64,000 nt of DNA from Thermincola carboxydiphila (GTDB lineage Bacteria; Bacillota; Thermincolia; Thermincolales; UBA2595). Of the stretch, positions 20,182 through 58,105 are shown piece after piece. The notes beneath the pieces were generated by a model that worked only from the letters and a program-made list of their open reading frames with translations, was not told the origin of the DNA and made no database searches. The stretch covers positions 62,001 to 126,000 of the forward strand of contig JAENYP010000006.1 in the NCBI GenBank assembly GCA_016841725.1, in the 5' to 3' direction. Position numbers and translations under genes: made by a program. The number at the start of each line of letters is the position of its first letter. The stretch's first letter is position 1.

Positions 20182-20184
20182 GTT

Positions 20185-37262: not shown

Positions 37263-37288
37263 CTATAATCAAACGGCTTTTGTGTACG

Positions 37289-37322
37289 AACGCCAGGCAG
37301 TTAACTGCCTGGCGTTTTCTTA
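37289..37322 (+). terminator. strong terminator after fourth SLH gene
   Basis: AACGCCAGGCAG (37289-37300) and CTGCCTGGCGTT (37305-37316) are perfectly complementary around TTAA and are followed by TTCTT. Confidence 0.9.
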
Positions 37323-37373
37323 ATTAGTGCGCCCGGGCATGGGCGCAGTCTAACGGGTGAAACACCCTAATTA
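37321..37373 (+). ncRNA. three-way-junction element, possible group II intron 5' fragment
   Basis: TAATTAG (37321-37327) pairs with CTAATTA (37367-37373), enclosing GCGCCC/GGGCGC (37329-37346) and GGGTG/CACCC (37355-37367). The GTGCGCCC start and the GCAGTCTAACGGGTGAAA segment resemble the 5' end of bacterial group II introns. No intron-encoded protein follows. Identity rests on memory of such introns; the fold itself is visible. Confidence 0.35.
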
Positions 37374-37548
37374 GAAACGATAAAATTTTATTGTAAAACA
37401 ATAAAATATATGTTAATATCAAATTATCATTAAATAAGTGAGGTGCTTAGCGTGAATGTCAGCCTGGAGATGTTTTAGAATATAAAAGAGACGAAGACAG
37501 TCTTTGAAATAGTTTGGGGATATTATAATTATTTTGAGAGGTTATTTT

Positions 37549-38607
37549 ATGTATGATATTGTAATAGTAGGGTCAGGCCCTGCGGGATCTACCCTGGCAA
37601 GATTAATTGGTGACAAATATAAGGTTTTATTAATAGATAAACGGGACCTGGAAAATGAGAATCCTAAAAACCTCACAACTAAATGCTGTGGAGGATTATT
37701 AGCCCCCGATGCTCAGGAAATGGTTGCCAAGTTGGGTTTAGGGATACCTAAAGATATTCTGGTTGATCCGCAGCTTTTTGCAGTAAGAACCATTGATCTA
37801 CCTAATAAGATAGAAAGGCTATACCAGAGATTCTATTTTAATATGGATAGGGATAAATTTGATAGATGGCTGGTTTCTATACTTCCAACCGGAGTTGATA
37901 AAAAGTTCAACACATTTTTCAAAAACTTTGCTGAAATTCCAGGAGGATATGAAATCAGATATATTTTTAATGGACAAGAAATATCTGCAAAGACAAGAGT
38001 TATTATAGGCGCTGATGGTGCTCTTTCTAAGATAAGGAAATCCATTACTAAAGATACTCCTGAAAAGTACATTGCAATTCAGGAATGGTTTGAGAGTGCA
38101 GATTATATCCCCCATTTCACAGCAATTTTTGATGAAGAAATAAGTGATTTCTACTCTTGGATAATACCAAAGGAGAATTATCTATTATTAGGATCAGCCC
38201 TTAGACCTAGGGAGAGCACTTGGAAAAAGTATGATATGTTGAAAACAAAACTAAGACAGTTAGGCTTTAATTTTGATACCAAAATAAAAACAGAGGGGGC
38301 ATATATCTATAGGCCTAAGAAGGTATCACAGCTTCATGTAGGTAGGGATGGTATAGCCCTGGTTGGAGAAGCTGCAGGTGCGATTAGCCCTAGCTCTGCA
38401 GAAGGAATCAGCTACGCATTAAAAAGCTCTTTATATTTAGCTCAGAGTCTTGAAGAGGGAATAGATGGATTTTTGGATAGATATAAACAGAAGGTTAAGG
38501 ATATCAAGTTAAATTTACTCATTAAAAATTTAAAATCCCCAGCTATGTATAATCCTTTTCTTAGACAGTTAGCTATGAAATCTGGTCTGCGAAGTATTAA
38601 ACAGTGA
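37549..38607 (+). CDS. geranylgeranyl-reductase-family FAD oxidoreductase
   Basis: A 352-residue flavoprotein. The Rossmann motif is VIVGSGPAGSTLARLI near the N-terminus, with VLLIDKR as the ribose-binding strand end, GADGALSKIRKS and the second FAD motif GIALVGEAAGAISPSSAEGISYAL near 280. The family reduces isoprenoid chains or related substrates and often acts on quinones or lipids. The ATG at 37549 follows GAGAGGTT. It stands alone between the SLH genes and the redox module; a link to quinone modification is possible but unproven. Confidence 0.85.
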   Translation: MYDIVIVGSGPAGSTLARLIGDKYKVLLIDKRDLENENPKNLTTKCCGGLLAPDAQEMVAKLGLGIPKDILVDPQLFAVRTIDLPNKIERLYQRFYFNMDRDKFDRWLVSILPTGVDKKFNTFFKNFAEIPGGYEIRYIFNGQEISAKTRVIIGADGALSKIRKSITKDTPEKYIAIQEWFESADYIPHFTAIFDEEISDFYSWIIPKENYLLLGSALRPRESTWKKYDMLKTKLRQLGFNFDTKIKTEGAYIYRPKKVSQLHVGRDGIALVGEAAGAISPSSAEGISYALKSSLYLAQSLEEGIDGFLDRYKQKVKDIKLNLLIKNLKSPAMYNPFLRQLAMKSGLRSIKQ

Positions 38608-38645
38608 TAATGGTTAATTTGAAAATTATTACGGAAGGTATAACC

Positions 38646-39050
38646 ATGGAGATTAATAATCCGGTTATTGAAAATATTGCCAACCCCCATGAGCTGAGAA
38701 ATGTTGTTTACACCCTTGCAGCGCTATTCCTAATCTCCGGAATTTATCTTAATATGCTGCCACTGGAGGAAAAAGACGGTATTATCCTGGCTTATCTACA
38801 CCTCCCCATTTTCTTATGGGTATTATTAGGGCTTGCATTTACAGGAAATGAATATCCAAAAGGCAGCACAAGATTAGCCTATCTTAAATTTAATGGGGAG
38901 TTTTGCATACTCTACGCCAGCATGGCAATCAGCGGAATGCTGCTAACAGCATTAACCATGCAGTTATTTAGATTTGCCGGTCTACGGACTTTGGGCAGCT
39001 TTCGTTACATTTACTTTTCCTTTAATTTTTTCTTAGAAAGGCTCTGTTAA
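38646..39050 (+). CDS. membrane protein fragment resembling DUF4153
   Basis: A 134-residue frame with about three membrane segments (VVYTLAALFLISGIYL, LPIFLWVLLGLAFTG, ILYASMAISGMLLTALTM). The first 110 residues resemble the N-terminal part of long DUF4153 membrane proteins, which normally run to about 600 residues. The tail after RFAG looks junction-derived and is followed by GGCTCTGTTAA, a motif seen at some insertion-sequence ends. It is probably a truncated gene. The ATG at 38646 follows GGAAGG. Confidence 0.45.
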   Translation: MEINNPVIENIANPHELRNVVYTLAALFLISGIYLNMLPLEEKDGIILAYLHLPIFLWVLLGLAFTGNEYPKGSTRLAYLKFNGEFCILYASMAISGMLLTALTMQLFRFAGLRTLGSFRYIYFSFNFFLERLC

Positions 39051-39114
39051 TTTACACTTTGTAAAGAAATTCCCAATAAAAAGTCCATTGTAATTAGTTG
39101 TACCCAGTGATAGA

Positions 39115-40635
39115 ATGATACAAATTAATTGCGGCAAGGTCGAGGAGGAATTAGTTATTATAAATGTGCAAAGTTTTTTTATTAACAACATGTCTATAAT
39201 CTATTTTATCTATGGCTTAGCATTTTTTACCGTAGGTCTTTCTTTAGCCCTTCAATCTCGAAAAGACAGCGATTTTGTATTATCAAAATCTTTATGGATG
39301 TTAGCTGGATTTGGATTTATTCATTCTTTGGGCGAGTGGGCTAAAATGTATGTTCCTCTTGAACTTAGTGCAGATACAATTTCCAGTAATCTTGTTTTGC
39401 GTATTATAGAAGCACTAATTGTTTCAAATTCTTTCATGTTTCTATTTCTTTTTGGCATCAATCTGCTTATTGACTCCACTGGAAAGTATTATCGATTGAA
39501 ATATTTACCTTTTATTATAAACGGTATCTGGTTAATTAAGTTCGTCTTTTGGGATTTAGTTATAGTAGGAGTTGATGATATTGTTAACTGGACCTTTTAT
39601 AGCACAACTATGGCTCGTTATCTGCTTGCTTTGCCAGGATCGTTTGCCACAGGGATAGCTTTATTGATTCAAGCAAGTACATTAAGGGAATTTGATTTGA
39701 ACAGTGCCGCTAAAAATTGTAAAATCGCCGGTATAAGTTTTCTGCTATATAGTTTTTTCTCTGGTTTAGTTGTTTTACCAGTCAGCTTTTGGCCTGGTAA
39801 CTTTTTAAATACAGAAACGTTTTTCAGTATTGTAGGATTACCGGTACAAATTTTTCGGGCTTTGCTAGGACTTGTTATAGCCTTAACCATAAGCAGGATT
39901 ATAAATATGTTTAATGAAGAGCAAAGCCGACGGCTGGCTCAGGCTAAGCAGCAGAGTATTATTATTCAGGAGAGAGAAAGGTTCAGCAGGGACTTGCATG
40001 ATGGAATAATGCAATCAATTTACAGTGTAGGTCTGGTTCTAAAGGCCAGCAAATTAATGTTAAAAGAGGGTGAAACAGAAACTTTGGCAGCACAACTGGA
40101 TTACTCTGAGAACAAGCTAAATGAGACTGTGCTTCTTTTGCGAAACTATATTGGAGACCTACACCAGGTGAATAAAGAGGAGTATCGATTGAAAGAGCTA
40201 CTTGAAAATTTGGGCCAGGAATATAAAGGTTTATTGATGTTGAATTTAAAGATTGAGACTAATCTGGAAAAAGATATATTTCTAACACCAACACAAGCAA
40301 ACTATTTAAGTCATATCGTAAAAGAGGCACTCTTTAATATAATTAAGCATGCACATGCCAGTAAGGTGAAAATTCAAGTATTAACAGCAACTAACGGAAA
40401 ACAAGAGAATATCAATGTATTGATAATTGATGATGGGATAGGGTTTGATTTCCAAGTAGCAGGAAATAAACATGCGGCAGAAAACCTGGGGCTCGCCAAT
40501 ATGAAGTTTCGTGCTCAGCGGCTGCACGGAAGTCTTGAAATAATTACAGCAGCAAATATTGGCACCAAAATTTCTTTAACTTTTCCTGTAGACGTTACGC
40601 TCAGCGGCGTCCCGCTAAGTAATTTGAAACATTAA
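39115..40635 (+). CDS. 7-TM NarX/LiaS-type sensor histidine kinase
   Basis: A 506-residue kinase with about seven membrane segments in the first 270 residues, so sensing is probably in or at the membrane. The HisKA_3 domain has RERFSRDLHDGIMQSIYSVG with the phospho-acceptor His at about residue 295. The HATPase domain has VKEALFNIIKHAHA, DDGIGFD and GLANMKFRAQRL. The start is uncertain: the ATG at 39115 has no ribosome site, while GAGGAGG at 39142-39148 has only a distant GTG (39166) behind it. The partner is the NarL-type regulator at 41007. Confidence 0.88.
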   Translation: MIQINCGKVEEELVIINVQSFFINNMSIIYFIYGLAFFTVGLSLALQSRKDSDFVLSKSLWMLAGFGFIHSLGEWAKMYVPLELSADTISSNLVLRIIEALIVSNSFMFLFLFGINLLIDSTGKYYRLKYLPFIINGIWLIKFVFWDLVIVGVDDIVNWTFYSTTMARYLLALPGSFATGIALLIQASTLREFDLNSAAKNCKIAGISFLLYSFFSGLVVLPVSFWPGNFLNTETFFSIVGLPVQIFRALLGLVIALTISRIINMFNEEQSRRLAQAKQQSIIIQERERFSRDLHDGIMQSIYSVGLVLKASKLMLKEGETETLAAQLDYSENKLNETVLLLRNYIGDLHQVNKEEYRLKELLENLGQEYKGLLMLNLKIETNLEKDIFLTPTQANYLSHIVKEALFNIIKHAHASKVKIQVLTATNGKQENINVLIIDDGIGFDFQVAGNKHAAENLGLANMKFRAQRLHGSLEIITAANIGTKISLTFPVDVTLSGVPLSNLKH

Positions 40636-40645
40636 ATTTTAAACT

Positions 40646-40684
40646 GGCTTACTAGACATTTTTAGTAAGCCTGTTTTATTTTTA
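40646..40684 (+). terminator. terminator after 7-TM kinase gene
   Basis: GGCTTACTA (40646-40654) and TAGTAAGCC (40663-40671) are complementary around an eight-base loop and are followed by TGTTTTATTTTTA. The regulator gene beyond must therefore have its own promoter. Confidence 0.85.
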
Positions 40685-40740
40685 TTAAGGAAATTACCGT
40701 TTTGCAGGATTGTGGATAATTTCTTAATAATGGGGGTTAT

Positions 40741-40807
40741 AGGGGGTATGCCCCCTTTGAACAAGAAAATTGACATCGAAGATAAATTTGATGAAGTCAA
40801 TTTTCTT
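40741..40807. promoter_or_regulatory. two inverted repeats upstream of regulator gene
   Basis: AGGGGG-TATG-CCCCCT (40741-40756) is a perfect hairpin. AAGAAAATTGAC (40763-40774) and GTCAATTTTCTT (40796-40807) are perfect 12-base arms 21 bases apart. A 74-codon frame (40712-40936) crosses them but consists of these repeats and is unlikely to be a gene. Confidence 0.45.
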
Positions 40808-40824
40808 GATGCTAGTAATAAGTT

Positions 40825-40952
40825 TCGGGACATATTGTTATGGCAAATGCATCTGATTATTTTTAAAAAACAGTATTTTGACAGAGCAAAAGTAACAATC
40901 ATAATCGGGACATATCGTTATGGCAAATGCATCTGATTATTTTTAAAAAACA
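40825..40952. repeat. 48-base direct repeat, period 80, before narL-like gene
   Basis: The bases 40825-40872 and 40905-40952 differ at one position. Each includes CGGGACATAT and TGGCAAATGCATCTGATTAT. The second copy runs directly into GATATAAT, a likely -10 (40957-40962) for the regulator gene. A third ATCGGGATTAT partial copy lies at about 40975. They are candidate binding sites for the regulator or a duplicated promoter. Confidence 0.7.
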
Positions 40953-41006
40953 ATGATATAATAGTGAGCAAATATCGGGATTATTATCTAGAAAGGGTGA
41001 ATAGTC

Positions 41007-41681
41007 GTGGAAAAAGTAAAGGTGCTAATTGTTGATGACCATGAAGTGGTAAGATTCGGTTTGAGTTTATTGCTCACCCGGTATGATTATTTGGAAGTGG
41101 TTGGAGAGGCTGAGACAATTGAGGAAACTTTTACGTTGATGGAAAAACACAGGCCGGAAATTGTTATTATGGATGTGAGATTAAAAAAGTGCAGTGGAAT
41201 TGATTGTTGCCGTGAGGTTTTGCAACGACATCCCTATACTAATGTAATTATGCTGACTTCTTATGGTGATGATAAAGTGATACTCAATTCTATAAGGGCC
41301 GGAGCGAAAGGATTTGTTTTAAAGGACACTGGCAATGATGGATTAATTAGGGCAATAGATGCTGCCATAAAAGGGGAATCGATGCTGGATTCGAAGATAA
41401 CCAATGCACTAATGAACCATCTACGCAGGGCTTCGGATGATGATCAAAAAGTAAAACTATCTAAGCAAGAGCTAAAAGTGCTGAATCTGATTTCAAAGGG
41501 TTCTACCAATAAAACTATTGCTAAGGAAATTTTCCTTAGCGAAAAGACTGTTCGTAATTATGTGAGCAACATATTGAGCAAATTGAATCTGAATAACAGG
41601 GCGGAAGCTGCTGTCTATGCTCTTAAAAACGACCTTGGAGAGTCAGTTAATAATAAAAGCAGCAAGCATATTACCAGATAA
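41007..41681 (+). CDS. NarL/FixJ-family response regulator
   Basis: A 224-residue regulator with receiver residues D10, D11, D56 (IVIMDVRLKK) and K107-region (GFVLKD), and a C-terminal LuxR helix-turn-helix (LSKQELKVLNLISKGSTNKTIA, FLSEKTVRNYVSNILSKLNL). The GTG start follows GAAAGGGTGA. It lies 31 bases before the FeS-protein gene in the same orientation and should be cotranscribed with, and control, the redox module. Confidence 0.92.
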   Translation: MEKVKVLIVDDHEVVRFGLSLLLTRYDYLEVVGEAETIEETFTLMEKHRPEIVIMDVRLKKCSGIDCCREVLQRHPYTNVIMLTSYGDDKVILNSIRAGAKGFVLKDTGNDGLIRAIDAAIKGESMLDSKITNALMNHLRRASDDDQKVKLSKQELKVLNLISKGSTNKTIAKEIFLSEKTVRNYVSNILSKLNLNNRAEAAVYALKNDLGESVNNKSSKHITR

Positions 41682-41712
41682 TGTGACTAATAACTGAAAG
41701 GGATGAGCGGAG

Positions 41713-42525
41713 ATGTATATTTCACGGCGTGGTTTGCTTAAGGGTCTAGGGCTAGCCGGCTTATCTGTAACTATCATACCGACGATTGATAAGATTTCTG
41801 GCTTTAATTCTAAAGCCCTGGCCGATACGAGCAATTCAGAACGGAAAAAACTAGTTAGGCAATGGGTAAGAATTATCGACTTAAAAAAATGTGATGGTTG
41901 TGAAGGTCTTGGAATGGAGCCCCAGTGTATGGCTGCAGACAGAAGCGTTTACCACAGGCCGGAAGGACAGGAGTGGATAGATGTAAAGAAAGTTCATGGC
42001 GAAGGAGGCAGCAGTTATTGGATGCCAATACCCTGCCAGCATTGTGAAAATGCTCCTTGTGTAAAGGTCTGTCCGGTAGGAGCCACTTTCCATAGTGAGA
42101 CCGGTACTGTTTTAGTTGATAACAGAAAATGTATCGGCTGCCGATTTTGTTTGGCTGCCTGTCCCTATGACCGTCGCTTTTTTTACTGGGAAGCACAGGT
42201 TTCAGACCCGAAAAATACATTTACTGAATATTCTCCAGAGTTTCCCCTGCCGGCGCGTAAGGGCACAGCTAATAAATGTGTTCTTTGTGAATCATTTACT
42301 AAGGATGGCAAACTGCCGGCCTGTGTTTCGGGTTGTCCTCGGGGAGCAATGTACCTGGGAGATTTGGAAACCGATGTGGCAACAAACGGTTTAGAGGTCG
42401 TAGGGGTGAAAAAGATGTTGGCGGAACATAACGCATATCGTTACAAAGAAGAGTTGGGAACCAAGCCAAGAGTATACTACTTACCTGGCCATGGGCAGGA
42501 ACAAGGGAGGAACCCTCGTGACTAA
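41713..42525 (+). CDS. Tat-exported 4Fe-4S ferredoxin-type electron-transfer subunit
   Basis: A 270-residue protein of the DmsB/NrfC/PhsB class. The N-terminus has a twin-arginine motif (SRRGLLKGLG) and hydrophobic stretch, so it is exported folded. Cysteine groups read CDGCEGLGMEPQC, CQHCENAPCVKVCP, CIGCRFCLAACPYD and CVLCESF ... CVSGCP, enough for four clusters. It should pass electrons between the NrfD subunit and a periplasmic-side partner. Its stop overlaps the NrfD start. Confidence 0.92.
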   Translation: MYISRRGLLKGLGLAGLSVTIIPTIDKISGFNSKALADTSNSERKKLVRQWVRIIDLKKCDGCEGLGMEPQCMAADRSVYHRPEGQEWIDVKKVHGEGGSSYWMPIPCQHCENAPCVKVCPVGATFHSETGTVLVDNRKCIGCRFCLAACPYDRRFFYWEAQVSDPKNTFTEYSPEFPLPARKGTANKCVLCESFTKDGKLPACVSGCPRGAMYLGDLETDVATNGLEVVGVKKMLAEHNAYRYKEELGTKPRVYYLPGHGQEQGRNPRD

Positions 42526-43855
42526 TAATAAAAGAAGCAATGAATTAGTAAACAAAACTTTAGCGCCTTTGGTGAAACCGGGATTAGGTTACAACCTGGT
42601 GTTGGCCGTCTTAGCGGTTATTGTGTTAGTGGGTATTTTCTCCTACACCGGGCAGCTGCGGCAGGGTTTAAGTGTTACCGGTATGCAAAATCAAGTCTTC
42701 TGGGGATTATATATCACCACATTTGTATATTTTATCGGTATAAGTCTGGCAGGAACATTGGTATCGGCTGTATTGAGATTATCGGGGCAGCATTGGCAGG
42801 CCCCCATCACGAGAATTGCGGAAGTTATTACCGGTTCAGCCTTGATTGGTGCCCTGCTAATGATTGTTATCGACATGGGAAGACCGGAACGATTGTTAAA
42901 TGTATTTATTTATGGAAGAATCCAATCGCCATTGCTCTGGGATGTAATTGCTGTTAATACCTACTTATTTGGAAGCTTGTTATACTTATATATTCCAATG
43001 ATACCTGACTTGGCTTTATGTCGTGATAGACTTGAGAAATCAGTTTCTTCCACAAGACATAAAATATATAGTATGCTGGCTTTAGGATGGCAGAATACAC
43101 CTGAACAAAAGGAAAGATTGGAAAACGTTATCAAAATCATGTCAGTAGTGATTATTCCAGCCGGTATAGCGGTACACTCCGTTACAGCTTGGATATTTGG
43201 GATGACACTAAGGTCCGGTTGGGATAGTACGATTCTTGCACCTTATTTTGTAGTTAGCGCATTTTTCTCCGGGGTAGCGATGGTTATTGTAGCTATGGCT
43301 ATTTATCGTAAAGCTTTTGGCCTGGAGCAATACTTTACAGTTGAGCACTTTAAAAAACTGGGTTGGCTTCTGGTTGCGATGGGACTGGTCTATGGATATT
43401 TTAATTTTGCCGAACTGCTTACCGAAGGTTACAAATTAAAAGGTCATGAACAAGAATTTTTAAGCATGTTTTTTACGGGTCAGTTTGCACCACATTTTTG
43501 GTTGTTTTTCCTTAGCAATGTATTAATTCCGCTATTCTTACTTTCATGGTCAAAAACCAGAAATATAACCGGGATAACCGTCGCAGGACTGTTGGTTGTT
43601 ATCGGAGTATGGTTTAAACGTTATATTTTCGTAATTCCTACCCTTTCGTTCCCCAATACACCTACATATTATGGTTTTACACCATATAGCCCTACTTTGC
43701 AGGAAATCTCTATTACTATGATTGGTATGGCGGGTTTTGTACTGTTAATCGCTCTCTTCTTTCGTTTCTTTCCAGCTATTCCTGTTTGGGAAATTGCTGA
43801 TGATTTGGATAAAGACTCGACAATTAGTCACATTAATTCCTTACGGGTTAGATAA
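42518..43855 (+). CDS. nrfD: NrfD-family quinol-interacting membrane subunit
   Basis: A 445-residue polytopic protein with about ten membrane segments (YNLVLAVLAVIVLVGIFSY, FWGLYITTFVYFIGISLAGTL, ALIGALLMIVIDMGRPERL, VVIIPAGIAVHSVTAWIFG, WLFFLSNVLIPLFLL). The DMGRPERL and HSVTAWIFG segments are typical of NrfD/PsrC subunits. I place the start at the GTG 42518 behind GGGAGG; an earlier ATG at 42491 lies inside the upstream gene. It probably oxidises menaquinol for the FeS subunit. Confidence 0.92.
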   Translation: MTNNKRSNELVNKTLAPLVKPGLGYNLVLAVLAVIVLVGIFSYTGQLRQGLSVTGMQNQVFWGLYITTFVYFIGISLAGTLVSAVLRLSGQHWQAPITRIAEVITGSALIGALLMIVIDMGRPERLLNVFIYGRIQSPLLWDVIAVNTYLFGSLLYLYIPMIPDLALCRDRLEKSVSSTRHKIYSMLALGWQNTPEQKERLENVIKIMSVVIIPAGIAVHSVTAWIFGMTLRSGWDSTILAPYFVVSAFFSGVAMVIVAMAIYRKAFGLEQYFTVEHFKKLGWLLVAMGLVYGYFNFAELLTEGYKLKGHEQEFLSMFFTGQFAPHFWLFFLSNVLIPLFLLSWSKTRNITGITVAGLLVVIGVWFKRYIFVIPTLSFPNTPTYYGFTPYSPTLQEISITMIGMAGFVLLIALFFRFFPAIPVWEIADDLDKDSTISHINSLRVR

Positions 43856-43872
43856 TTGAAAGGAGGGGTGTA

Positions 43873-44646
43873 ATGGTGAAGCGATTAACTCTGGTTATTT
43901 TACTGCTCGGTCTCCTAACTTTGATTTATGTACCTGGTGCTTTAGCAAACGGTGTTTATTTTTCCAGAATTCCGGAAGGTCTGCAAAAAGACTGTACTTT
44001 GTGTCATTCCTCGGTACCTAATCTAAATGATTTTGGTGAAAAATTTAAAGCTAACAACTATGATTTTAAGGCCTTGGCGGGGACAGGCCAACCTCAAGAT
44101 AAGCCAGATACCTCAGGAGGGACAAATAAACCAACCGGTAAGCAGGACGTCAACATTGAGTTGATTTTACCTGATAGTGTTACCAGGGGTGAGAGAACCC
44201 AATTACAAGCCAAAGTCACTGTAGGTGCTACGCTGGTAGCTGACAAACAAGTTAATTTTTTCGCAGAAACTAATAACTTCTTTGGGCAGAACAAGATCAA
44301 TTTAGGCGGGGCTTCTACTGGTGCTGACGGAATTGCGCGGATTAGCTATTGGCCTCAAGTTTTAGAAGAAAAGATAAATGTGACTGCCGTTGTTGATGCG
44401 GATACGCAAATTAATGCCGGTGAGGCAGCAGGATCTTTTGATTTGGTCTTAACTGGACCTCTATATCATAAGGGTGAGGGTTTAGAGATACCGTTTTTAG
44501 GTACCTGGACGATTGGTTTAGTGATAGGGTTAATATGGGCTACCTATTTCTTCGCCGGGTATAAAGTGCTGCAAATTAGAAAGTATGCTAAAACTGCACA
44601 ACAAGAAGTTAAACGAGAAGCAGAAAGAAGACAGGCTCGGGCTTAA
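43873..44646 (+). CDS. membrane-anchored monoheme c-type cytochrome
   Basis: A 257-residue protein with a signal peptide (VILLLGLLTLIYVPGALA), one CxxCH heme site (CTLCHSSVPNLNDFGEKFKAN), a beta-rich domain of about 110 residues, a C-terminal membrane helix (TWTIGLVIGLIWATYFFAGY) and a basic cytoplasmic tail. The heme segment with following FGxxFKxN is seen in cytochromes linked to FeS/NrfD modules. It starts 17 bases after the NrfD gene behind AAAGGAGGGG and is probably the exit point for electrons. Confidence 0.87.
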   Translation: MVKRLTLVILLLGLLTLIYVPGALANGVYFSRIPEGLQKDCTLCHSSVPNLNDFGEKFKANNYDFKALAGTGQPQDKPDTSGGTNKPTGKQDVNIELILPDSVTRGERTQLQAKVTVGATLVADKQVNFFAETNNFFGQNKINLGGASTGADGIARISYWPQVLEEKINVTAVVDADTQINAGEAAGSFDLVLTGPLYHKGEGLEIPFLGTWTIGLVIGLIWATYFFAGYKVLQIRKYAKTAQQEVKREAERRQARA

Positions 44647-44698
44647 GGAAAAGTAATATACCGGGTAAAGGCATATCACTAAAAGAGGAGATGGTAAC

Positions 44699-45031
44699 AT
44701 GTTGTTCTGGGCAATCGGAGTGCTCTCGGTTCTTTTGGGATTTAGTGTTGCAATTTACTTGGTTTTTGAAAAGTTTGGCAGTGAACTTAGCACTATTAGC
44801 GTGTTCAGTACAGCAGCCACGGGAGTTGTTTTCAGTATAGTTATTGGATTAGTAGTGCTGCTAGTCGTGTGGCCGCCGGTAACATTTGCATCATGGTTGT
44901 TTTTTGTAGCCTTTTCAGGTGGAGTTTCATTATTAGTGTTAACTAGAGATAAAAAGAGAAATAAAAGAAGTAAGGGGTCTGTGAACGATATCAATAGTCG
45001 GGATGACTATTGCTCTAAAACTGGGAGTTAG
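44699..45031 (+). CDS. small three-helix membrane protein
   Basis: A 110-residue protein with three membrane segments (WAIGVLSVLLGFSVAIYLVF, GVVFSIVIGLVVLLVVW, FASWLFFVAFSGGVSLLVL) and a basic hydrophilic tail. The start follows AGAGGAG. I do not recognise the family. Its position as last gene of the redox operon suggests an accessory or assembly role. Confidence 0.65.
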   Translation: MLFWAIGVLSVLLGFSVAIYLVFEKFGSELSTISVFSTAATGVVFSIVIGLVVLLVVWPPVTFASWLFFVAFSGGVSLLVLTRDKKRNKRSKGSVNDINSRDDYCSKTGS

Positions 45032-45068
45032 TATAAGCGGTTCTTTGAATAATTGAAGGAAATGTAGA

Positions 45069-45098
45069 ACAGGTGAGTGTAAGAGCTCATCTGTTTTT
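45069..45098 (+). terminator. terminator of redox operon
   Basis: ACAGGTGAG (45069-45077) pairs with CTCATCTGT (45085-45093) with one G-U pair and is followed by TTTTTC. Confidence 0.8.
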
Positions 45099-45294
45099 CA
45101 TTTATAGTGTAAGTTGACAGATATGCAAGCTGTTTGCATAATACTAGGATATTATGACATGGATACCTGGACAAATGACGGTATTTTTGTTGTGAAAACA
45201 ATGAAAAAAAAGGGGAAAAAGTCCCGGGCTACTATTGGTTTTAGTATGGGATTATGATAAAATTAACATAACAAGCACTAAGGAGGTTTTAAGA

Positions 45295-45708
45295 ATGATT
45301 AAAACTAAAAACCAATTAGTAGCCAAAATTAAAGAACATAACTCTCTATTATCTGCTGCCGTCATGGGGTTAGGAGTAGGGTTAATTATAACTGTAATTT
45401 TTACCAAAATTGGTGTAGTGCTGGTCTTAGTTGCTTTAATGATAAAAAGTTTCGGGTATCCCATGAGCTCTACCATCCCTAAATTGATTAAATACCGGCC
45501 TGTTACATGTCCTTTTTGCCGAGATATTAGTCAAGTAAGAATAAATGCCAGCGAATTTACCTGTGACAATTGTGGTAATAGATTAGCTGTAGCGGAGAAT
45601 GGTAAAGTAAGACTTTATAAACATCTAAAATTGGCAGTAGATAACAGTCCTACCGTCTTCGGAAAACCAGTGATTAAAGCCCCTTTTAATTCAGGAGTAG
45701 AGGTGTAA
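45295..45708 (+). CDS. membrane protein with C-terminal zinc ribbon
   Basis: A 137-residue protein. A hydrophobic region at about residues 20-55 (LLSAAVMGLGVGLIITVIF, GVVLVLVALMIKSFG) forms one or two helices. It is followed by CPFC ... CDNCG, a two-knuckle zinc ribbon. The ATG at 45295 follows TAAGGAGG; upstream codons to 45235 are non-conserved. Function is unknown. Confidence 0.7.
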   Translation: MIKTKNQLVAKIKEHNSLLSAAVMGLGVGLIITVIFTKIGVVLVLVALMIKSFGYPMSSTIPKLIKYRPVTCPFCRDISQVRINASEFTCDNCGNRLAVAENGKVRLYKHLKLAVDNSPTVFGKPVIKAPFNSGVEV

Positions 45709-45752
45709 AGAAATTCTATATCAGTTTATTTACCGAAATAATGAACCATAGA

Positions 45753-45784
45753 AAAATGGCTAGGGAGATATCCCTAGCCATTTT
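45753..45784. terminator. bidirectional terminator
   Basis: AAAATGGCTAGGGA and TCCCTAGCCATTTT are perfect 14-base arms around GATA. With A and T tracts on both sides, it serves the converging zinc-ribbon and octaheme cytochrome genes. Confidence 0.9.
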
Positions 45785-45802
45785 GTGTTCGCAAGCTGCG
45801 GC

Positions 45803-47749
45803 TTATTTGTTCTGATGGCAGGTGCCGCAAGTGTTAGTGTATGGAACGGGCATTGGCTTCTTAGTTTTGTTGGGGACATCGAATACGTGCGCGGTGATGT
45901 CACCATGGAGATTTTCTCCGATCTGATTGAGGCCGGCACCGCTGTTAGCAGTCTTGACGTTATGGCAATCGATACACTTGGCATTGGCGCCCATGACGGT
46001 GCCAACCTTGTCTTTCTGATGCTCATCAATCTTGACGCTCGTATGGCAGGAGAGGCACAAGCTGCTGTCAGAGACGCCTGAGAGCTGGTGACGGTCCGTA
46101 CCGGGTGCGTGAAGATCATGGCACGAGGAACAGGTCAGTAACTGCGATCCGTTCCGGTACTTACCGGACTGAATAAAGTCGGTATACTGCTGGTGATGCG
46201 CTTTCGAGTGCAACCCATCTTCAAACATGTCACTCTCGGCAGAGTCGTTGCGAGATGTGTTATTGGCCAGGAAATCAGCCCGGCTGGTCCCGGCAATCAT
46301 CATCTTGTTTTCGCTGTTGAGGGGTGAATCCTTTTTAATTCCGAAGGAATCGTTCCCCTGAGGACGGCTGTGGCACTGGGCACAAATCACCGTTTCCCGC
46401 TCCGGAGTGAGGAGTTGAGGACTAACAATTGCCATGCCTTTACCACCTGCTGCTACGTGTTCGGAGCCAGGACCGTGGCAGGTCTCACAGCCGATGTTCA
46501 GTTCCTGCTTCTCCCCGGCTATCGGGTGCAGCTCACCATTGGGGTCAGCCACGCCTGTGGCCATGAATTCACCGGTATCGGCATTTTTGGTAACGCTGTA
46601 GCCGTTAAAGTGGCAGGTTGCGCACTGAACGTCGGCGGCGTTTTTAGCGGCTGGCTGTGATTTGAACACCGGCTTTCCAGAAGGATCATCGATCCACCAA
46701 TCCAGGTGATAATCCCGCCACTGCATTCTGACGCGTTCCTTGGAGGCTTCGTCACCCCTGGAATTGTACTGCAGCGGGAGCATGTGGATGCTGGTGCCGG
46801 CTGTGGTCAGGTAACGCTGCTTGTATACCCCGCCGCCATAAGTAAGCTTCACTTCTTTTGTGAACGGGCTGGCCGGGTCCGATGGATTCTTGACATTGGT
46901 GAAGGTCATCTTATACTTACCGTCAGTATCCTTGAACACCTTCACTGTGGCCCATACATTGCTGAGTTTTCCATCTGGGTCCGGATTTGTTTCCGAAGTC
47001 TTGAATTTATCGAACTTACGCTTCTCATCGTAATCGTAGAAGTAGATGGTAGTACCCGTCGAAGTAAACTTGTTTTCCAATGCGGCAAACATGTTATACT
47101 CGGCGTCATCGGCATCAAAATTGCTCGCATCCTGAAGGCCGCTCGGTTCTCCAGGTATCATGAAGCCGTTCTTGTGTGCCGTCTTCTTAACATCTGATTT
47201 GTCGCTATGGCAGCCGAGACAAGTGCTGGTGCCGACGAAAGTTGCTTCGGTGGAGGGTTTGGTGGACACCGTGACCTCAACCACTTTATTCAGAGAATCG
47301 CCAGTCACCGGTACTCGGGTGAGGCTGCCGCCGGGCAGATGAGCGCTGTCGTCATCAGCCGGTTGTACATAGATAAAATACTTATCTGCTTCGCCCATGG
47401 CAAGGCCGGAAATCTCCGCCTTCCCTTGGTCGTCGGTGACCCACTTTTGGTATGTCGTTACACCGCCGCCGGACGGGGTAAAATTACCGTTGATCAGATC
47501 TTCAAGGGGCTCATCCACGGTAAGGGCTTCGGCAGAATAATTGCCGAACTCCTTATCGTCCCGGGAAATTGGTACGGCGGCAAGAGCTTCAACGTCCGCC
47601 ACAGGAATAGCAAAGACAGTGGCCCCAACGATAGGTGCCCCCGAGGTATCCTTCACGGAAAAGTTCGGATCCGCTTTAGAGCTGCAGCCCAAAATACCGA
47701 AAACTGCTAATATAAGTAATGAGAAAAACAACAATAATTTTCTATACAA
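45803..47749 (-). CDS. octaheme c-type cytochrome lipoprotein
   Basis: A 648-residue exported cytochrome. The signal ends in a lipobox (FGILGCSS), so it is predicted to be lipid-anchored outside the membrane. Residues about 25-170 form an Ig-like domain (VKDTSGAPIVGATVFA ... DDQGKAEISGL). Eight CxxCH sites follow: CLGCH, CATCH, CETCH, CAQCH, CSSCH, CLSCH, CIDCH and CGTCH, with extra histidines (GPGSEH, DLHAPG) as distal ligands, as in the c554-like multiheme family. It could carry electrons across the wall or act as terminal reductase. It converges on the NrfD operon. Confidence 0.93.
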   Translation of the reverse strand: MYRKLLLFFSLLILAVFGILGCSSKADPNFSVKDTSGAPIVGATVFAIPVADVEALAAVPISRDDKEFGNYSAEALTVDEPLEDLINGNFTPSGGGVTTYQKWVTDDQGKAEISGLAMGEADKYFIYVQPADDDSAHLPGGSLTRVPVTGDSLNKVVEVTVSTKPSTEATFVGTSTCLGCHSDKSDVKKTAHKNGFMIPGEPSGLQDASNFDADDAEYNMFAALENKFTSTGTTIYFYDYDEKRKFDKFKTSETNPDPDGKLSNVWATVKVFKDTDGKYKMTFTNVKNPSDPASPFTKEVKLTYGGGVYKQRYLTTAGTSIHMLPLQYNSRGDEASKERVRMQWRDYHLDWWIDDPSGKPVFKSQPAAKNAADVQCATCHFNGYSVTKNADTGEFMATGVADPNGELHPIAGEKQELNIGCETCHGPGSEHVAAGGKGMAIVSPQLLTPERETVICAQCHSRPQGNDSFGIKKDSPLNSENKMMIAGTSRADFLANNTSRNDSAESDMFEDGLHSKAHHQQYTDFIQSGKYRNGSQLLTCSSCHDLHAPGTDRHQLSGVSDSSLCLSCHTSVKIDEHQKDKVGTVMGANAKCIDCHNVKTANSGAGLNQIGENLHGDITAHVFDVPNKTKKPMPVPYTNTCGTCHQNK

Positions 47750-48314
47750 TTTAATTTCCTCCCATACAGTAAATCATAGAATTATCTTGCTTTGTGAAAA
47801 AATCAACAAAAATTGGAGCAATCCTTTTTGCCTGAAAACCACCTCCTGAGAAGATTTTGCGACATCAGGGTCTTTCCTAAAGTAAAACCTATCAATAACT
47901 GTTTTGAAACGTCTTAGTAATTACTACCCCCTTTAGTTTGCTAACCTGATTATAACTGTTCTTAAAATCTTTAGCACGATGATGTTTGTCCTAATCGGCT
48001 AACATTTTGTCATAAATTCATCCTCACTTTTGCACTGGTTGTCATAATTTATCCAAAGAGTATGATGAACGAAGAAGTGAAATTGATTTCGATGCTTGAA
48101 TCCTGCCAATCGTTTACTTAGATTGTGGTACATTTGTAAAAAAATAACTTAAAAAACTGTCAAATAACTGTCTTAAGTATAAATTCTGAAACATAAAATG
48201 CGTTGGAGGCTAATTAATAGATGTCTTAACTTCTAATAGGGAATTGAACCCTATCCAAGTTTTGCTGAAAAAGAGGTGAGCCATACGGAAAAGGAAACGG
48301 GAGGCACAGCAGTA
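47750..48314. promoter_or_regulatory. divergent intergenic region with direct repeats
   Basis: No gene is seen in these 565 bases apart from a possible GTG start of the next gene at 48276. TTGTCATAA followed by ATTCATCC or TTTATCC occurs at 48007-48023 and 48039-48054, starting 32 bases apart, which is about three turns. Promoters for the cytochrome (leftward) and transpeptidase (rightward) must lie here, but no consensus pair stands out. Confidence 0.4.
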
Positions 48315-49799
48315 ATGCCGGCCAAAGAGCTCATAGAAATACCTGAAGAGGAACCGCCAGAAGAACCGCCAGAGGAACCGCCAGAAGAACCGCCAAAAGA
48401 ACCGCCAAAAAAAACTGTAAAGCAGCTGACCCAACAATATAGAAAATTTCTTACTGGCGGAATAATCCTGCTTTTTACTTTACTTGTTATTTATTTGGGA
48501 GTGGCATATTATTTTAAAGACCATTTTTATTTTGGGACTGAAATCAATGGCATAGATGTTTCGGGGGAAACTGTAGAGGATGTAAAGGCACTAATGGCAG
48601 CGGAACTTAATGCTTATACCCTGAACCTGAAAGAACGGGAAGGTAAAACTGAACAGATAAAAGCCGGTGATGTGGGCTTACAATTTGCTTCAGAGGGAGA
48701 ATTTAAAGAAATTAAAGACAGTCAGAGTTGCTTTAAGTGGATTTTAGGGTGTTTGCTAACTGAAGTCTCAAAAAAGGCAGTTATATTAAAATATGATGAG
48801 AAGTTGCTGCAGGAACGAATAGGCCGCCTATTATGTTTTAAGCCGGAAAATATAATTGAACCTGCAAATCCCGGCTTTAAATATGTGAATAACAGTTATG
48901 TAATTGTGGATGAAGTCATTGGAAACAAGGTGGATAAAGACCTGTTATACTCTCTGGCAGCGGATGCCATGTGTAATCTGAAAAACGAAATAGATCTGGA
49001 ATCAAGGGGCTGTTATATAGAACCACAATATGATTCCAAGTCACCACAAGTCATAGAAGTCAAAAACACCCTTAACAGGTATATTGCCACAAAAATCACC
49101 TATACTTCCGGAGACATAAATAATACTCTGGACGGGTCCCGGATAAATGAATGGCTTGCAGTTGATGAAAATTTAAATATTACAGTCAGTGAAGAAAAGG
49201 TAAAGGGTTATGTGAGTGAACTTTCCGCTGCCTTTAACACAGTTGGTAAGACAAGAAGTTTTACTGCATCATCAGGAGAAACAATCACAGTCAGCGGCGG
49301 TGATTATGGAAGGTCTGTAAATAAAGTTGAAGAAACCCAATTCTTACTTTCTGCCATCAGCAAAGGGGAGACCATAACCAAAGAACCGGCATTCAATCAA
49401 AATACCTTTTCACAGGGCAATAATGATATCGGAAATACCTATGTGGAAATATCCCTGGCAAACCAGCATTTATGGTTTTACAAAAACGGCTCTCTAATAG
49501 TACAGGGAGATACTGTTACAGGAAATGTAAGTCAAAATTATGCAACCCGTAAAGGAGTTTTCCGTTTAAAATATAAATCAGGAAATGTAATCCTCAGAGG
49601 TCCGGATTACGCTGTCCATGTAGACTTCTGGATGCCCTTTGACGGTGGTATAGGGATGCATGATGCTACCTGGAGAAGTGCGTTTGGACGTAATATCTAT
49701 CTGACAAACGGTTCACACGGCTGTGTAAATCTGCCATACAATGTGGCCAAAAAGATATTTAATAATATTACGCCAGGTACTCCTGTCATCTGTTATTAG
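48315..49799 (+). CDS. L,D-transpeptidase (YkuD) with peptidoglycan-binding domain
   Basis: A 494-residue membrane-anchored wall enzyme that forms 3-3 peptidoglycan cross-links. A short cytoplasmic head with repeated EEPPEEPP is followed by a membrane helix (GGIILLFTLLVIYLGVAYYF), a PG_binding_4-like region (about 85-370) and the YkuD domain. The catalytic site is HGCVNLP in SHGCVNLP, with Cys at about residue 470 and upstream VHVDFWMPF ... GMHDA. The ATG at 48315 follows GGGAGG by ten bases; a GTG at 48276 would add 13 residues. Confidence 0.92.
   Translation: MPAKELIEIPEEEPPEEPPEEPPEEPPKEPPKKTVKQLTQQYRKFLTGGIILLFTLLVIYLGVAYYFKDHFYFGTEINGIDVSGETVEDVKALMAAELNAYTLNLKEREGKTEQIKAGDVGLQFASEGEFKEIKDSQSCFKWILGCLLTEVSKKAVILKYDEKLLQERIGRLLCFKPENIIEPANPGFKYVNNSYVIVDEVIGNKVDKDLLYSLAADAMCNLKNEIDLESRGCYIEPQYDSKSPQVIEVKNTLNRYIATKITYTSGDINNTLDGSRINEWLAVDENLNITVSEEKVKGYVSELSAAFNTVGKTRSFTASSGETITVSGGDYGRSVNKVEETQFLLSAISKGETITKEPAFNQNTFSQGNNDIGNTYVEISLANQHLWFYKNGSLIVQGDTVTGNVSQNYATRKGVFRLKYKSGNVILRGPDYAVHVDFWMPFDGGIGMHDATWRSAFGRNIYLTNGSHGCVNLPYNVAKKIFNNITPGTPVICY
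48351..48410 (+). repeat. 12-base tandem repeat coding Glu-Glu-Pro-Pro
   Basis: The unit GAACCGCCAGAR is repeated about five times, coding EPPE/EPPK. It makes a stiff charged cytoplasmic linker, and copy number may vary. Confidence 0.85.
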
Positions 49800-49834
49800 C
49801 TACTTGCACAAAATCACTTACATGATATTTTAAG

Positions 49835-49866
49835 CCCCCTGTGAAAATTACTTCCAGGGGGTCATT
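49835..49866 (+). terminator. terminator after transpeptidase gene
   Basis: CCCCCTG (49835-49841) pairs with CAGGGGG (49855-49861) and is followed by TCATTT. The T run is short. Confidence 0.6.
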
Positions 49867-49898
49867 TAACTTGGGGGTGGTTTTATGAACAATTTTGA

Positions 49899-49958
49899 TT
49901 GACATTTACAGGTTACAAATGTAAACTATACTTACAGGTTACGTTTGTAACCTGTAAG
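49899..49958 (+). promoter_or_regulatory. blaI promoter and two BlaI-type operators
   Basis: TTGACA (49899-49904), 17 bases and TAAACT form the promoter. TTACA-AA-TGTAA (49913-49924) and the perfect CTTACAGGTTAC/GTAACCTGTAAG palindrome (49931-49958) contain the TACA/TGTA core recognised by the BlaI/MecI family. Autorepression is expected. Confidence 0.8.
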
Positions 49959-50015
49959 ACGGGTTGCCAATATAACCAATGTGGCGGGTTGTATAACCCA
50001 AAAGGAGGGGCAGAT

Positions 50016-50402
50016 ATGAGTAAATTAGTTTCCCGGATTACAGATTCTGAGCTGGAGGTTATGCGGGTTTTGTGGCAAGCTGATGGTGAACTTTCCCTGG
50101 CAGGCATAAGAAAAACCCTGGAGCAGACCAGTAACTGGGAAACATCTACAATAAAGACCCTGCTGCGCAGATTGTGCAACAAAGGGGTGGTTGCAGCAGC
50201 AAAAAAAGAAGTATATTATTACAAACCCCTGGTCAGTGAGGAGGAATACACCGAATATACAACTCAGAGCCTGATTGACCGCTTATACTCGGGCAGCGCC
50301 AAAAACCTGGTAGCATCCCTTTTGGGCAGCAAAAAGCTTGACGACAAAGAGATTGAGGAGCTGCGCACACTGTTTAAGGTAGGTGATGATAGGGATGAAT
50401 GA
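50016..50402 (+). CDS. blaI: BlaI/MecI-family repressor
   Basis: A 128-residue winged-helix repressor: RITDSELEVMRVLW, TSNWETSTIKTLLRRLCNKGVV, YYYKPLVSEEEY and a C-terminal dimerisation helix. The ATG at 50016 follows AAAGGAGGGG; codons upstream cross the operators and are not coding. It is inactivated by cleavage when its partner peptidase is triggered, and it overlaps that gene by eight bases. Confidence 0.92.
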   Translation: MSKLVSRITDSELEVMRVLWQADGELSLAGIRKTLEQTSNWETSTIKTLLRRLCNKGVVAAAKKEVYYYKPLVSEEEYTEYTTQSLIDRLYSGSAKNLVASLLGSKKLDDKEIEELRTLFKVGDDRDE

Positions 50403-52782
50403 GACAGTCAGGTTATTACTATCACTTTCCTTATCAGGGAGCATTCTCGGTCTGCTAATCCTGGCCCTTAAACCTCTGATAAAACACAGGGTCCCCAAAT
50501 CAATCCAATACTATATATGGCTGATTGTGTTATTGAGGCTGGTGACCCCGTTTTCTCCGGAAAACAGCCTCATGAATGATGTGTTTTACAGCAGCGGTCC
50601 TGCAGGAGAGACCAATCCTGCAGGCGAACATAATCCTGAGGGAGTAAACAGTCAAACCGGTAACCAGTCCGGTATCCCCTCCGGTGTTCAGACTTCGGGC
50701 AGTACCGGTGAGTTTCCCGGAATTTCGTTGACATTACCCAATATTATGGAAAATGCAGCCCGCGGGGCTTATAACAATGATGTTGACCACAGCAGGTATC
50801 TTCAGGACTTATTAACCCAGTATATTATATACCTTTGGTTACTGGGGGTTGTCATCGCAATTACGGTAAACTTGGCCGGATATACGAGGTTTTTGAACTG
50901 CCTGAGGCAGGGATACAGGGAGGCCACGGATGATGAAAACAGCCTGCTGACCGCCTTATTAAAGGGCCGAAAACGGGTAAGGCTGCTGCGTAATAAGTTT
51001 GTGCCCACACCCATGTTAATTGGCATTTGGAGACCTTGTATAATTATTCCTGATGTTGATTTTGATGAAAAACAGCTGAAGAACATTTTACTGCATGAGG
51101 TCACACACCTGCGCCGTTTTGATATCCAGGTAAAATGGCTGACCATGACAGCTGCTTCCATTCACTGGTTCAATCCCCTGGTGTACCTCTTTAAGAGGAA
51201 AATCAATCAAGCCTGTGAACTGGCCTGTGATGAAGCGGTTATCAAAAATCTTAGTCCGGCAGAAAAACAGGCTTATGGTGACACCTTAATCTCTGTGATA
51301 GCAGAGCATAAGTACCCGGTGGGGGTTCTGCAGGCGACCATGAGTGAAGAAAAAAAGAGTTTGCAGGAAAGACTGGTGGCTATTATGAAGCACCATCAGA
51401 AATCTAGGCAGATAATTATTTTATCGGGGATTTTATTGGGAGTTTTCCTGTTCGGTGCGATATATCTGGGCGCCGGAGTGGGGAGTGGAGCAGCTTCACC
51501 GCCTAACCTGTATATTGCCGCAGAAGGGGAAAAAACCAAAGCAGCCCTTAAAGGCAGTTATTCCTGGACAAATGGTGAACGACACATTCAGGCCGATTCT
51601 GACCACCCCGTCAATTTCGCATATAGTCTTGATAACACTGTTTCCGTATCAGGTAAGGAACAGCTTATTCTTGGTACCCGGAAAACAAAAAATGATAAAC
51701 AGTATGACTTTACCATTGAGGATTTAACTGTATATAAAGACAAACAGCCCGTAGATTTTGCGGGTGTGGAACCGGGCTTTATGAACGGAAGCCTATATCT
51801 TCAGGTGCCGCCGGACCCGGGAGAATACATCTATGTATTGAGATTAAACATTAAGGATGATAAGGGGAAGGCTAAGGGAACTGTCAGCTACGGATTTGTT
51901 GTCAGAGTAGATATGATGAACTATGATCTGGCTGAGCATCCCAGGGAAGTTATTGACCTGGTGGAAAATAACCTGGAAATTATCATGTCATCTCCTAAAG
52001 AATCATCTAACCCAATGGATTACATCAAAGCTCATCAAAACGAATACGAAACCATTATTAAATACAGCTATAGTTATAACAATGAAGAAGTACTAAAATA
52101 CATGCTTTCTCAATTTGAAGAAGGTAATGCAGAAGGTTTGCGCGGGCATCTTTTGATGGGGCTCTGCAAGGAATTATTAGGTGAAAGAAATAATGTAATG
52201 GATGAAACTCTAACTCCGGCGGAGTGGTATGCACAGCTTAATGTGCGGCAGGAAGTGAGCCTTCCCGATTTTTCTTATGGTGGTACTGACCCTATTGAAA
52301 AGTTGGTTTATGAGACAGAAATTGAAAAGAACAAAACAAGCGGGCAGGGGTTCACCATAATTGCCCCCCATATTTTCGGAAGCTATGTGGAAGGTAATAA
52401 ACTAAAGGTGTTTGTAACAACTTTTAGTTCCAGCTACAGACTATATGATAAGGTGCTGTCACTAGAGGGAGGGGGTATTATCCCTGTTGCCATAACCTAT
52501 GTTAAAAATGCTGATGGCAGTTACTCGTTGGAAGATTATGAACCAGCTCAGGATGGAGCTTACTTTGCCGGTTCAATCAGAGAATTCTGTACCATGCCCA
52601 CATCAGGTAAGAATATCAAAGGACTAGCCGGTGAAATCCTCCGCCACTATGGAGATTATGAAGATATTAAAAAACTGCAGCGGGAGAATTTAATCAGGCA
52701 CCTGAAGGCAAACGGTCAGTATGGAGTGTCTTTGTATCAAAAACAGTATCAAAAACCGGCTGGGCTGATACCGCTTACTTGA
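50395..52782 (+). CDS. blaR1: BlaR1/MecR1-type M56 sensor metallopeptidase
   Basis: A 796-residue membrane protein. Helices lie near residues 5-25, 37-52, 145-165 and 340-360. The M56 domain has zinc motif HEVTH (H234, E235, H238) and ACELACDEAV. The extracellular part of about 430 residues lacks the SxxK/SxN penicillin-binding motifs of BlaR1, so the inducer may not be a beta-lactam. Part of it (GSYSWTNGERHIQAD, YTFxIEDLTVYK) resembles wall-associated domains in clostridial homologues. The start codon overlaps blaI. Confidence 0.88.
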   Translation: MNETVRLLLSLSLSGSILGLLILALKPLIKHRVPKSIQYYIWLIVLLRLVTPFSPENSLMNDVFYSSGPAGETNPAGEHNPEGVNSQTGNQSGIPSGVQTSGSTGEFPGISLTLPNIMENAARGAYNNDVDHSRYLQDLLTQYIIYLWLLGVVIAITVNLAGYTRFLNCLRQGYREATDDENSLLTALLKGRKRVRLLRNKFVPTPMLIGIWRPCIIIPDVDFDEKQLKNILLHEVTHLRRFDIQVKWLTMTAASIHWFNPLVYLFKRKINQACELACDEAVIKNLSPAEKQAYGDTLISVIAEHKYPVGVLQATMSEEKKSLQERLVAIMKHHQKSRQIIILSGILLGVFLFGAIYLGAGVGSGAASPPNLYIAAEGEKTKAALKGSYSWTNGERHIQADSDHPVNFAYSLDNTVSVSGKEQLILGTRKTKNDKQYDFTIEDLTVYKDKQPVDFAGVEPGFMNGSLYLQVPPDPGEYIYVLRLNIKDDKGKAKGTVSYGFVVRVDMMNYDLAEHPREVIDLVENNLEIIMSSPKESSNPMDYIKAHQNEYETIIKYSYSYNNEEVLKYMLSQFEEGNAEGLRGHLLMGLCKELLGERNNVMDETLTPAEWYAQLNVRQEVSLPDFSYGGTDPIEKLVYETEIEKNKTSGQGFTIIAPHIFGSYVEGNKLKVFVTTFSSSYRLYDKVLSLEGGGIIPVAITYVKNADGSYSLEDYEPAQDGAYFAGSIREFCTMPTSGKNIKGLAGEILRHYGDYEDIKKLQRENLIRHLKANGQYGVSLYQKQYQKPAGLIPLT

Positions 52783-57046: not shown

Positions 57047-57057
57047 GGAGTCGAGCC

Positions 57058-57798: not shown

Positions 57799-57801
57799 AA
57801 T

Positions 57802-57946
57802 GTGCCAACAAAGATAGTCGTCATTGATGGAAAGTGCTATAGTCTCAGGAAGAGTGGATAAGACACTTGCGCCGAAAGATAATATTTCGAGAGCATAGGT
57901 TGCAGTGATAACTAAAAAGCTATTGCAAAAATGCGATTTGATATAG
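57802..57946 (+). pseudogene. scrap of an SLH surface-protein gene
   Basis: The first 42 bases code VPTKIVVIDGKCYS, matching the pre-SLH VPTKITVVNGRYYA of the fourth SLH protein. The sequence then jumps to GRVDKTLAPKDNISRA, a stop (TAG near 57896), and VAVITKKLLQKCDLI with the native stop. More than 150 codons between the two parts are deleted. The remaining 57947-58099 shows no gene. Confidence 0.75.
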
Positions 57947-58099
57947 ACTAAAGTGTGAAAAAATAATAATAAGATTTTACCACCTAATTTCAAAGTGGGT
58001 TTTATGTTCCCACAGACTGATGTTTGAGGGAACTTTTATGGGTGCGCCCTGAAAATTAGATGAAATTGGCTGCGTTTGATGGAATATCTAATATTATGG

Positions 58100-58105
58100 T
58101 ATAAT
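58100..58105 (+). promoter_or_regulatory. -10 box of helicase gene
   Basis: TATAAT lies about 50 bases before the chosen start. It makes an ATG at 58112 almost coincident with the transcription start, which supports the later ATG. Confidence 0.5.

Follow-up and report, generated by a model that had tools for sequence, protein, structure and literature searches.

Candidate menaquinol:cytochrome oxidoreductase with an octaheme lipoprotein on a gene island of Thermincola carboxydiphila

The Cbc4 complex of Geobacter combines an iron-sulphur (FeS) protein, an NrfD protein and a cytochrome, named CbcT, CbcU and CbcS (PMC11434368), and is linked to metal-oxide respiration (PMC11434368, PMC7894505). 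DsrO is described as orthologous to CbcT, and SirCD of Shewanella is an FeS/NrfD quinol dehydrogenase able to feed several respiratory pathways (PMC11434368). For Carboxydothermus ferrireducens, quinol oxidation was proposed to fall to multiheme proteins that carry CISM membrane-anchor domains (PMC7829351). Here we describe a locus of Thermincola carboxydiphila where the genes for an FeS protein, an NrfD protein and an anchored monoheme cytochrome form an operon beside the gene of an octaheme lipoprotein. It lies in a 64,000-nucleotide stretch of contig JAENYP010000006.1 (positions 62,001 to 126,000), termed the window, and its function was read from the sequence alone. No published description of the module was found in a literature search that was largely without subscription journals. 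To our knowledge, the path from the quinone pool across the wall is poorly known in Gram-positives; the wall cytochromes OcwA and OmhA, among others, have been studied, and their quinol oxidases are only candidates.

We consider it fairly probable that the gene island encodes, under the control of a two-component system, a compact menaquinol:cytochrome oxidoreductase and the wall-side protein that accepts its electrons. The ActC-like NrfD protein would oxidise menaquinol near the outer face of the membrane and may translocate protons. We infer that the FeS protein, by way of its clusters, then relays the electrons to the cytochrome, whose single heme is held by an immunoglobulin (Ig)-like domain and a C-terminal transmembrane (TM) helix, and that the monoheme passes them on to the octaheme protein. 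The latter would reduce an extracellular acceptor as the final one or pass the electrons to other surface cytochromes. The kinase would phosphorylate the regulator, which would bind a duplicated GGGACATWTYGTTANGG box and turn the operon on when the acceptor is available, presumably the signal that is sensed. The sequence itself shows the gene content, the export and anchoring signals, the heme counts, the presence of most quinol-site residues and the lack of a catalytic subunit. It also shows the joint mobility of kinase, operon and octaheme gene, the exchangeable redox head and the operon-specific promoter box.

In its working principle, the module has its nearest counterparts in Cbc4 (CbcSTU), in the DsrJOP portion of DsrMKJOP and in a trimmed form of alternative complex III. 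Like Cbc4, with which it was compared by description, it has an FeS protein, a membrane quinol subunit and a c-type cytochrome, and no catalytic subunit. Unlike in Cbc4, the monoheme is borne on an Ig-like domain with a C-terminal TM helix, the host is Gram-positive, and a kinase, a regulator and an octaheme protein travel with the module. The first-pass annotation had likened the locus to the Geobacter Cbc complexes, which is apt for the composition and as a working principle, but the closest solved relative of the NrfD protein is ActC. With alternative complex III (ActABCDEF) the module shares an ActC-type NrfD protein with most of the quinol site, a monoheme cytochrome, and an FeS protein that matches the ferredoxin-like C-terminal part of ActB. 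However, it comprises three core subunits only, and none of pentaheme ActA, large-domain ActB, ActD and ActF is encoded between 39115 and 48275. The likeness to DsrMKJOP lies in the best curated family models (NCBIfam), which were DsrO for the FeS protein (171.6 bits, cut-off 200) and DsrP for the NrfD protein (136.5 bits, cut-off 350), both below the cut-offs; DsrM, DsrK and triheme DsrJ are not encoded in the locus. SirCD, whose host is a diderm, is described as consisting of the FeS/NrfD pair, with no anchored monoheme subunit (PMC11434368). OcwA of Thermincola potens is, like the octaheme lipoprotein, a surface multiheme cytochrome of a Gram-positive, but it has nine hemes instead of eight, and the similarity covers about 200 residues and not the full length.

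The operon and its redox subunits

The locus was compared with a sample of 398 genomes of the phylum. The host genome is referred to as G000, two genomes of the same genus as G001 and G002, and a genome of another genus, the HGW-Firmicutes-14 record, as G003. The features of the island are as follows; the hairpins were called by consensus scans, as were the promoters.

39039-48095, no strand: gene island of about 9.06 kb, absent as a block from G002
39115-40635, plus strand: sensor histidine kinase with about 6-7 N-terminal TM segments (HisKA_3, HATPase_c)
40646-40671, plus strand: intrinsic-terminator-like hairpin 3' of the kinase gene
41007-41681, plus strand: NarL/MadR-type response regulator (Response_reg and GerE)
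41713-42525, plus strand: FeS protein of the DsrO/TtrB/CbcT type, exported by twin-arginine translocation (Tat; motif SRRGLLKG), with Fer4_11 and 15 cluster cysteines
42491-43855, plus strand: NrfD/ActC-like membrane subunit, probably quinol-binding (PF03916, E 2.6e-38)
43873-44646, plus strand: anchored monoheme cytochrome with signal peptide, CTLCH domain, Ig-like domain and C-terminal TM helix
44699-45031, plus strand: small membrane protein with about 3 TM segments, also in G003 and G050
45066-45097, plus strand: intrinsic-terminator-like hairpin after the small membrane protein gene, closing the operon
45235-45708, plus strand: TM/zinc-ribbon protein 3' of the module, with relatives in G003, G117 and G284
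45803-47749, minus strand: octaheme c-type lipoprotein with an N-terminal Ig-like stretch and a TTG start; ortholog only in G003

The two terminator-like hairpins, after the kinase gene and after the small membrane protein gene, delimit the operon to 41007-45031. Its five genes, which had been proposed to form one operon, were all found in place, and the FeS and NrfD genes overlap by 35 bases. The closest NCBIfam models of the regulator were MadR and NarL, with scores under their cut-offs. Judged by the linked HisKA_3 kinase and the NarL-type regulator, which are conserved with it, this has the make-up of a two-component-regulated operon. The 7-TM kinase suggested as a sensor is present upstream, with about 6-7 TM segments, but the span first considered (41007-47749) leaves out this kinase of the same island.

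The FeS, NrfD and monoheme cytochrome genes were found in the same order in 5 of the 398 genomes, which belong to four families (f1, f43, f34 and f120), with kinase or regulator genes nearby. No catalytic subunit adjoins this core at the loci of the five genomes. The identities to the window proteins were 84-60% for the FeS protein, 81-58% for NrfD and 76-39% for the cytochrome. Since the gene order recurs in four families at 39-84% protein identity, the operon is not a chance arrangement, and conserved synteny, which the first-pass annotation had named as a check, was thus observed. The NrfD profile matched 6 of the 398 genomes (E <= 1e-40), and the only match of the NrfD query among named genomes was HGW-Firmicutes-14. 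A relative of the kinase lies beside the module in G003 (two kinases, L036) and in G050 (L037), and a class I cytochrome c (PF00034) is encoded between the kinase and FeS genes in G117 and G284.

When the NrfD protein was compared with solved structures, ActC of three alternative complexes III was the closest (E 5e-61 to 6e-54), with 6f0k_C as the best match (E 5e-61). The quinol-binding residues of ActC are His139, Ser164, Asp169 and Asp253, and Arg395 acts as a gate (Calisto and Pereira review, PMC8076601). Asp128, Ser146, Asp151 and Arg377 of the window protein align with His139, Ser164, Asp169 and Arg395, respectively. Because most of the ActC quinol-site residues are kept, the NrfD protein likely binds quinol, with one of these residues missing. 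An acid at the position of His139 is usual in the DsrP, QrcD and PsrC types. A tree of NrfD with ActC had few supported forks and was not used.

The fourth cysteine of motif I of the FeS protein (residues 60-76) is replaced by Asp or His in the window, G003 and G050. The relatives in G117, G284 and G027 have at least 16 cluster cysteines and retain the fourth cysteine of motif I. A 3Fe or an Asp-ligated cluster is therefore possible in the window protein.

The third subunit consists of a heme domain, an Ig-like domain and a TM helix in five genomes. At the second loci of G117 and G027 the FeS and NrfD genes are followed by an Ig-like domain and a TM helix with no heme. At the first locus of G027 (L052:9373-11247, minus strand), a cupredoxin domain (PF13473) is fused to the Ig-TM scaffold, whose Ig-TM part is 30% identical (E about 3e-12); a second Cys-x3-Cys-x2-His stretch was read by eye in this protein. 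In G027, which is only 78% complete, heme motifs are not in excess: 39 were counted, and 49 in the control. As the Ig-TM scaffold is kept while the head is a heme, a cupredoxin or none, the third subunit is most simply read as the electron-exit subunit, with a redox head that would be exchanged according to the carrier at hand. In the structure model of the monoheme cytochrome only the Ig-like part was confident; it matched generic Ig/macroglobulin domains and no cytochrome.

The octaheme lipoprotein contains exactly 8 CxxCH motifs and the lipobox ILGC, so that its 17 cysteines are accounted for by 16 in the heme motifs and 1 in the lipobox. The first-pass annotation had it converging on the operon, as was found. 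The start codon appears to be TTG in the window, where G003 has CTG in the alignment; the same GGGAGGAAATTAAA precedes both. The ortholog was found in 2 of the 398 genomes, each time adjoining the module. Weak and partial matches to cytochromes of the surface and conduit kinds were obtained, namely to the DmsE/GSU2203 decaheme models, to an MtrC-like domain and to OcwA (E 1.8e-6, about 200 residues aligned). The structure model was unusable (predicted local distance difference test, pLDDT, 32). No Rfam match to GEMM or a similar riboswitch was obtained upstream of the octaheme gene in the window or at the G003 locus.

Mobility of the island and its promoter

The DNA of window positions 36000-52500 was compared with the related genomes. 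G002 matches 36010-39038 and 48096-52235 at 94-98% identity, and has 97 bp with a hairpin in between. In G003 the homology covers 39162-48011, at an unrelated location, and the copy of the flanking gene sits on a different contig from the island homologue. The G003 set comprises the kinase, the regulator, the FeS protein, NrfD, the cytochrome, the small protein, the Zn-ribbon gene and the octaheme gene at 76-86% DNA identity. As they are absent as a block from G002 and placed elsewhere in G003, the kinase, the operon and the octaheme gene travel as one island. The octaheme gene lies upstream of the two kinases on the same strand in G003, and downstream and inverted in the window, so that the set has remained linked despite rearrangement.

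At the left edge of the island, a gene for a 429-aa membrane protein is intact in G002 (L083:4003-5292), and window positions 38604-39050 are an in-frame remnant of it with internal deletions of about 298 and 524 bp. With this neighbour whole in G002 but shortened by internal deletions in the window, gain of the island in the lineage of the window is likelier, though not proven, than its loss in G002. The fourfold-site identity to G003 is 0.67 for the octaheme gene and 0.52-0.74 for the operon genes. The octaheme and operon genes thus share a history, and the high amino-acid identity of the octaheme protein reflects constraint and not a separate transfer. A recent foreign origin of the octaheme gene, considered for its higher GC content (guanine plus cytosine, 0.52), was ruled out by the same values.

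Upstream of the operon the following elements were recognised.

40674-40811, no strand: repeat dispersed in the genus, here inserted 5' of the operon promoter, with copies in G002
40827-40843, plus strand: operon-specific box GGGACATATTGTTATGG, first copy, the upstream duplicate in the window
40907-40962, plus strand: second box GGGACATATCGTTATGG, conserved spacer and -10 TATAAT (40957-40962), aligned with G003

The box, the spacer and the TATAAT are shared with G003; a good -35 element was not recognised at the operon promoter by the consensus scan. The box occurs twice in the window (40827 and 40907), within a near-perfect direct duplication of about 49 bp (40827-40875 and 40907-40955, 80 bp apart) that spans the putative regulator site. 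Perfect matches in G000, G001, G002 and G003 were found only at this operon, namely the two copies in G000 and that in G003. That the GGGACA box is a genome-wide repeat was ruled out, as matches with two mismatches were no commoner than those of a control pattern. The natural inference is that the second box and the -10 element are a probable activator site and promoter for the linked regulator. The repeat at 40674-40811 is intergenic and contains hairpins; several copies in G002 are 86-98% identical to it.

Electron path and alternative readings

Several observations weigh against the proposed menaquinol:cytochrome oxidoreductase. Among five relatives of the monoheme cytochrome, neither a distal His nor a distal Met is conserved (residues 41-45, 199); Lys59 is invariant. 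Asp253 of the ActC quinol site corresponds to Ile235 in the window NrfD, and the FeS proteins of the window, G003 and G050 have 15 cluster cysteines instead of 16. The octaheme gene is convergent with the operon in the window, and in G003 it is co-directional but two kinases apart. It is absent from G050 and from the module loci of G117 and G284, and hence appears as a clade-specific partner. The cytochrome-rich relatives G001 and G002 do without the island. Heme motifs numbered 841 in G000 against 211 in the control, and 869 in G001 and 867 in G002 against about 200. As the module-less relatives of the genus and the family are equally rich in heme motifs, the module would be at most one accessory or inducible branch.

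No molybdopterin or other reductase is encoded in the locus, in agreement with the first reading of the sequence, and the molybdopterin pool of the genome was accounted for. The host has only four PF00384 proteins, each with an in-frame TGA; two have their own FeS protein and third membrane subunit and two have other redox genes as neighbours. They look like selenocysteine formate dehydrogenases. A molybdopterin partner encoded elsewhere was rejected on this ground. DsrA scores exceeded the cut-off only in G050 and G117; those of G000, G003, G284 and G027 lay below it. Within the limits of these families, the in-frame TGA in all four PF00384 proteins and the low DsrA score of the host argue against a partner in trans of the molybdenum-reductase or Dsr kind.

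The octaheme protein might itself be a catalytic reductase for sulphite, tetrathionate or nitrite, with the FeS and NrfD proteins as its quinol dehydrogenase as in MccACD. This is unlikely, even though the MccACD subunit list is FeS, NrfD and octaheme (PMC8076601) and the octaheme gene and the module travel together. The other module loci that were read have no adjoining octaheme gene, and the protein matched the decaheme models, MtrC-like domains and OcwA rather than reductases of nitrite or sulphite. The MccACD octaheme has one long-spaced heme motif, CX15CH, whereas the hemes here are all of the CxxCH type, with no CX9-20CH and no CxxCK. Similarly improbable is a reverse flow for electron uptake, from extracellular or wall cytochromes via the monoheme and the FeS protein to menaquinone, as in Qrc. 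QrcABCD and NhcABCD are NrfD complexes that reduce quinone from periplasmic cytochromes (PMC8076601), and the window NrfD weakly matches the QrcD model, but its closest solved relative is ActC of the quinol-oxidising complex III, and the analogues Cbc4 and SirCD act as quinol oxidases (PMC11434368). It is very improbable that the module derives from a DsrMKJOP-type sulphite-reduction complex, be it as a relic or as a divergent part. DsrO and DsrP are its best NCBIfam models, but with scores under the cut-offs, and the locus lacks DsrM, DsrK and triheme DsrJ. The module does not track with Dsr, since DsrA exceeded the cut-off only in the two genomes G050 and G117, and the host's lack of DsrA largely refutes this reading.

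With the menaquinol-oxidising reading preferred, extracellular or metal respiration via the module would be plausible. More tentatively, the module may represent an undescribed family of minimal, complex-III-like quinol oxidoreductases of Gram-positives, with an exchangeable head (c-heme, cupredoxin or none) on an Ig-like/TM subunit. In this lineage it would be a plug-in route for electron export, a cassette that moves from one genus to another and brings along its sensor, its regulator and a terminal wall cytochrome. If one cassette supplies the quinol oxidase, the anchored cytochrome, the octaheme of the wall, the sensor and the regulator, the path from the quinone pool across the wall could be tested by a single transfer. 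The exchange of heme, cupredoxin or none on one scaffold would show one quinol oxidase core adapting to different carriers. The cassette also bears on the quinol step in Gram-positives, the role proposed for the CISM-anchored multihemes of C. ferrireducens (PMC7829351).

Other genes of the window and the host

The Zn-ribbon/TM gene has its own promoter-like site at 45114 and a probable ATG start at 45295. ResB genes for cytochrome c maturation are present in the host genome. A 3060-aa protein with 42 CxxCH motifs is encoded at G000:C9:29749-38931 (L086:7750-16932, plus strand). The genes of two 6-heme proteins lie before it, and cytochrome c maturation genes (a ResB match and, by eye, one for a CcsA-like membrane protein) come after it. 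A 459-aa protein with 15 CxxCH motifs and two tandem 7-heme proteins were found at G000:C3:52279-53658 and 55649-58216 (L087). The window also contains four large S-layer-homology proteins, three of them with GLUG repeats (361-4755, 20170-23871, 27743-32257 and 32502-37262). At its right end a Cas3-like helicase is encoded (61525-63696), and a CRISPR locus may follow outside.

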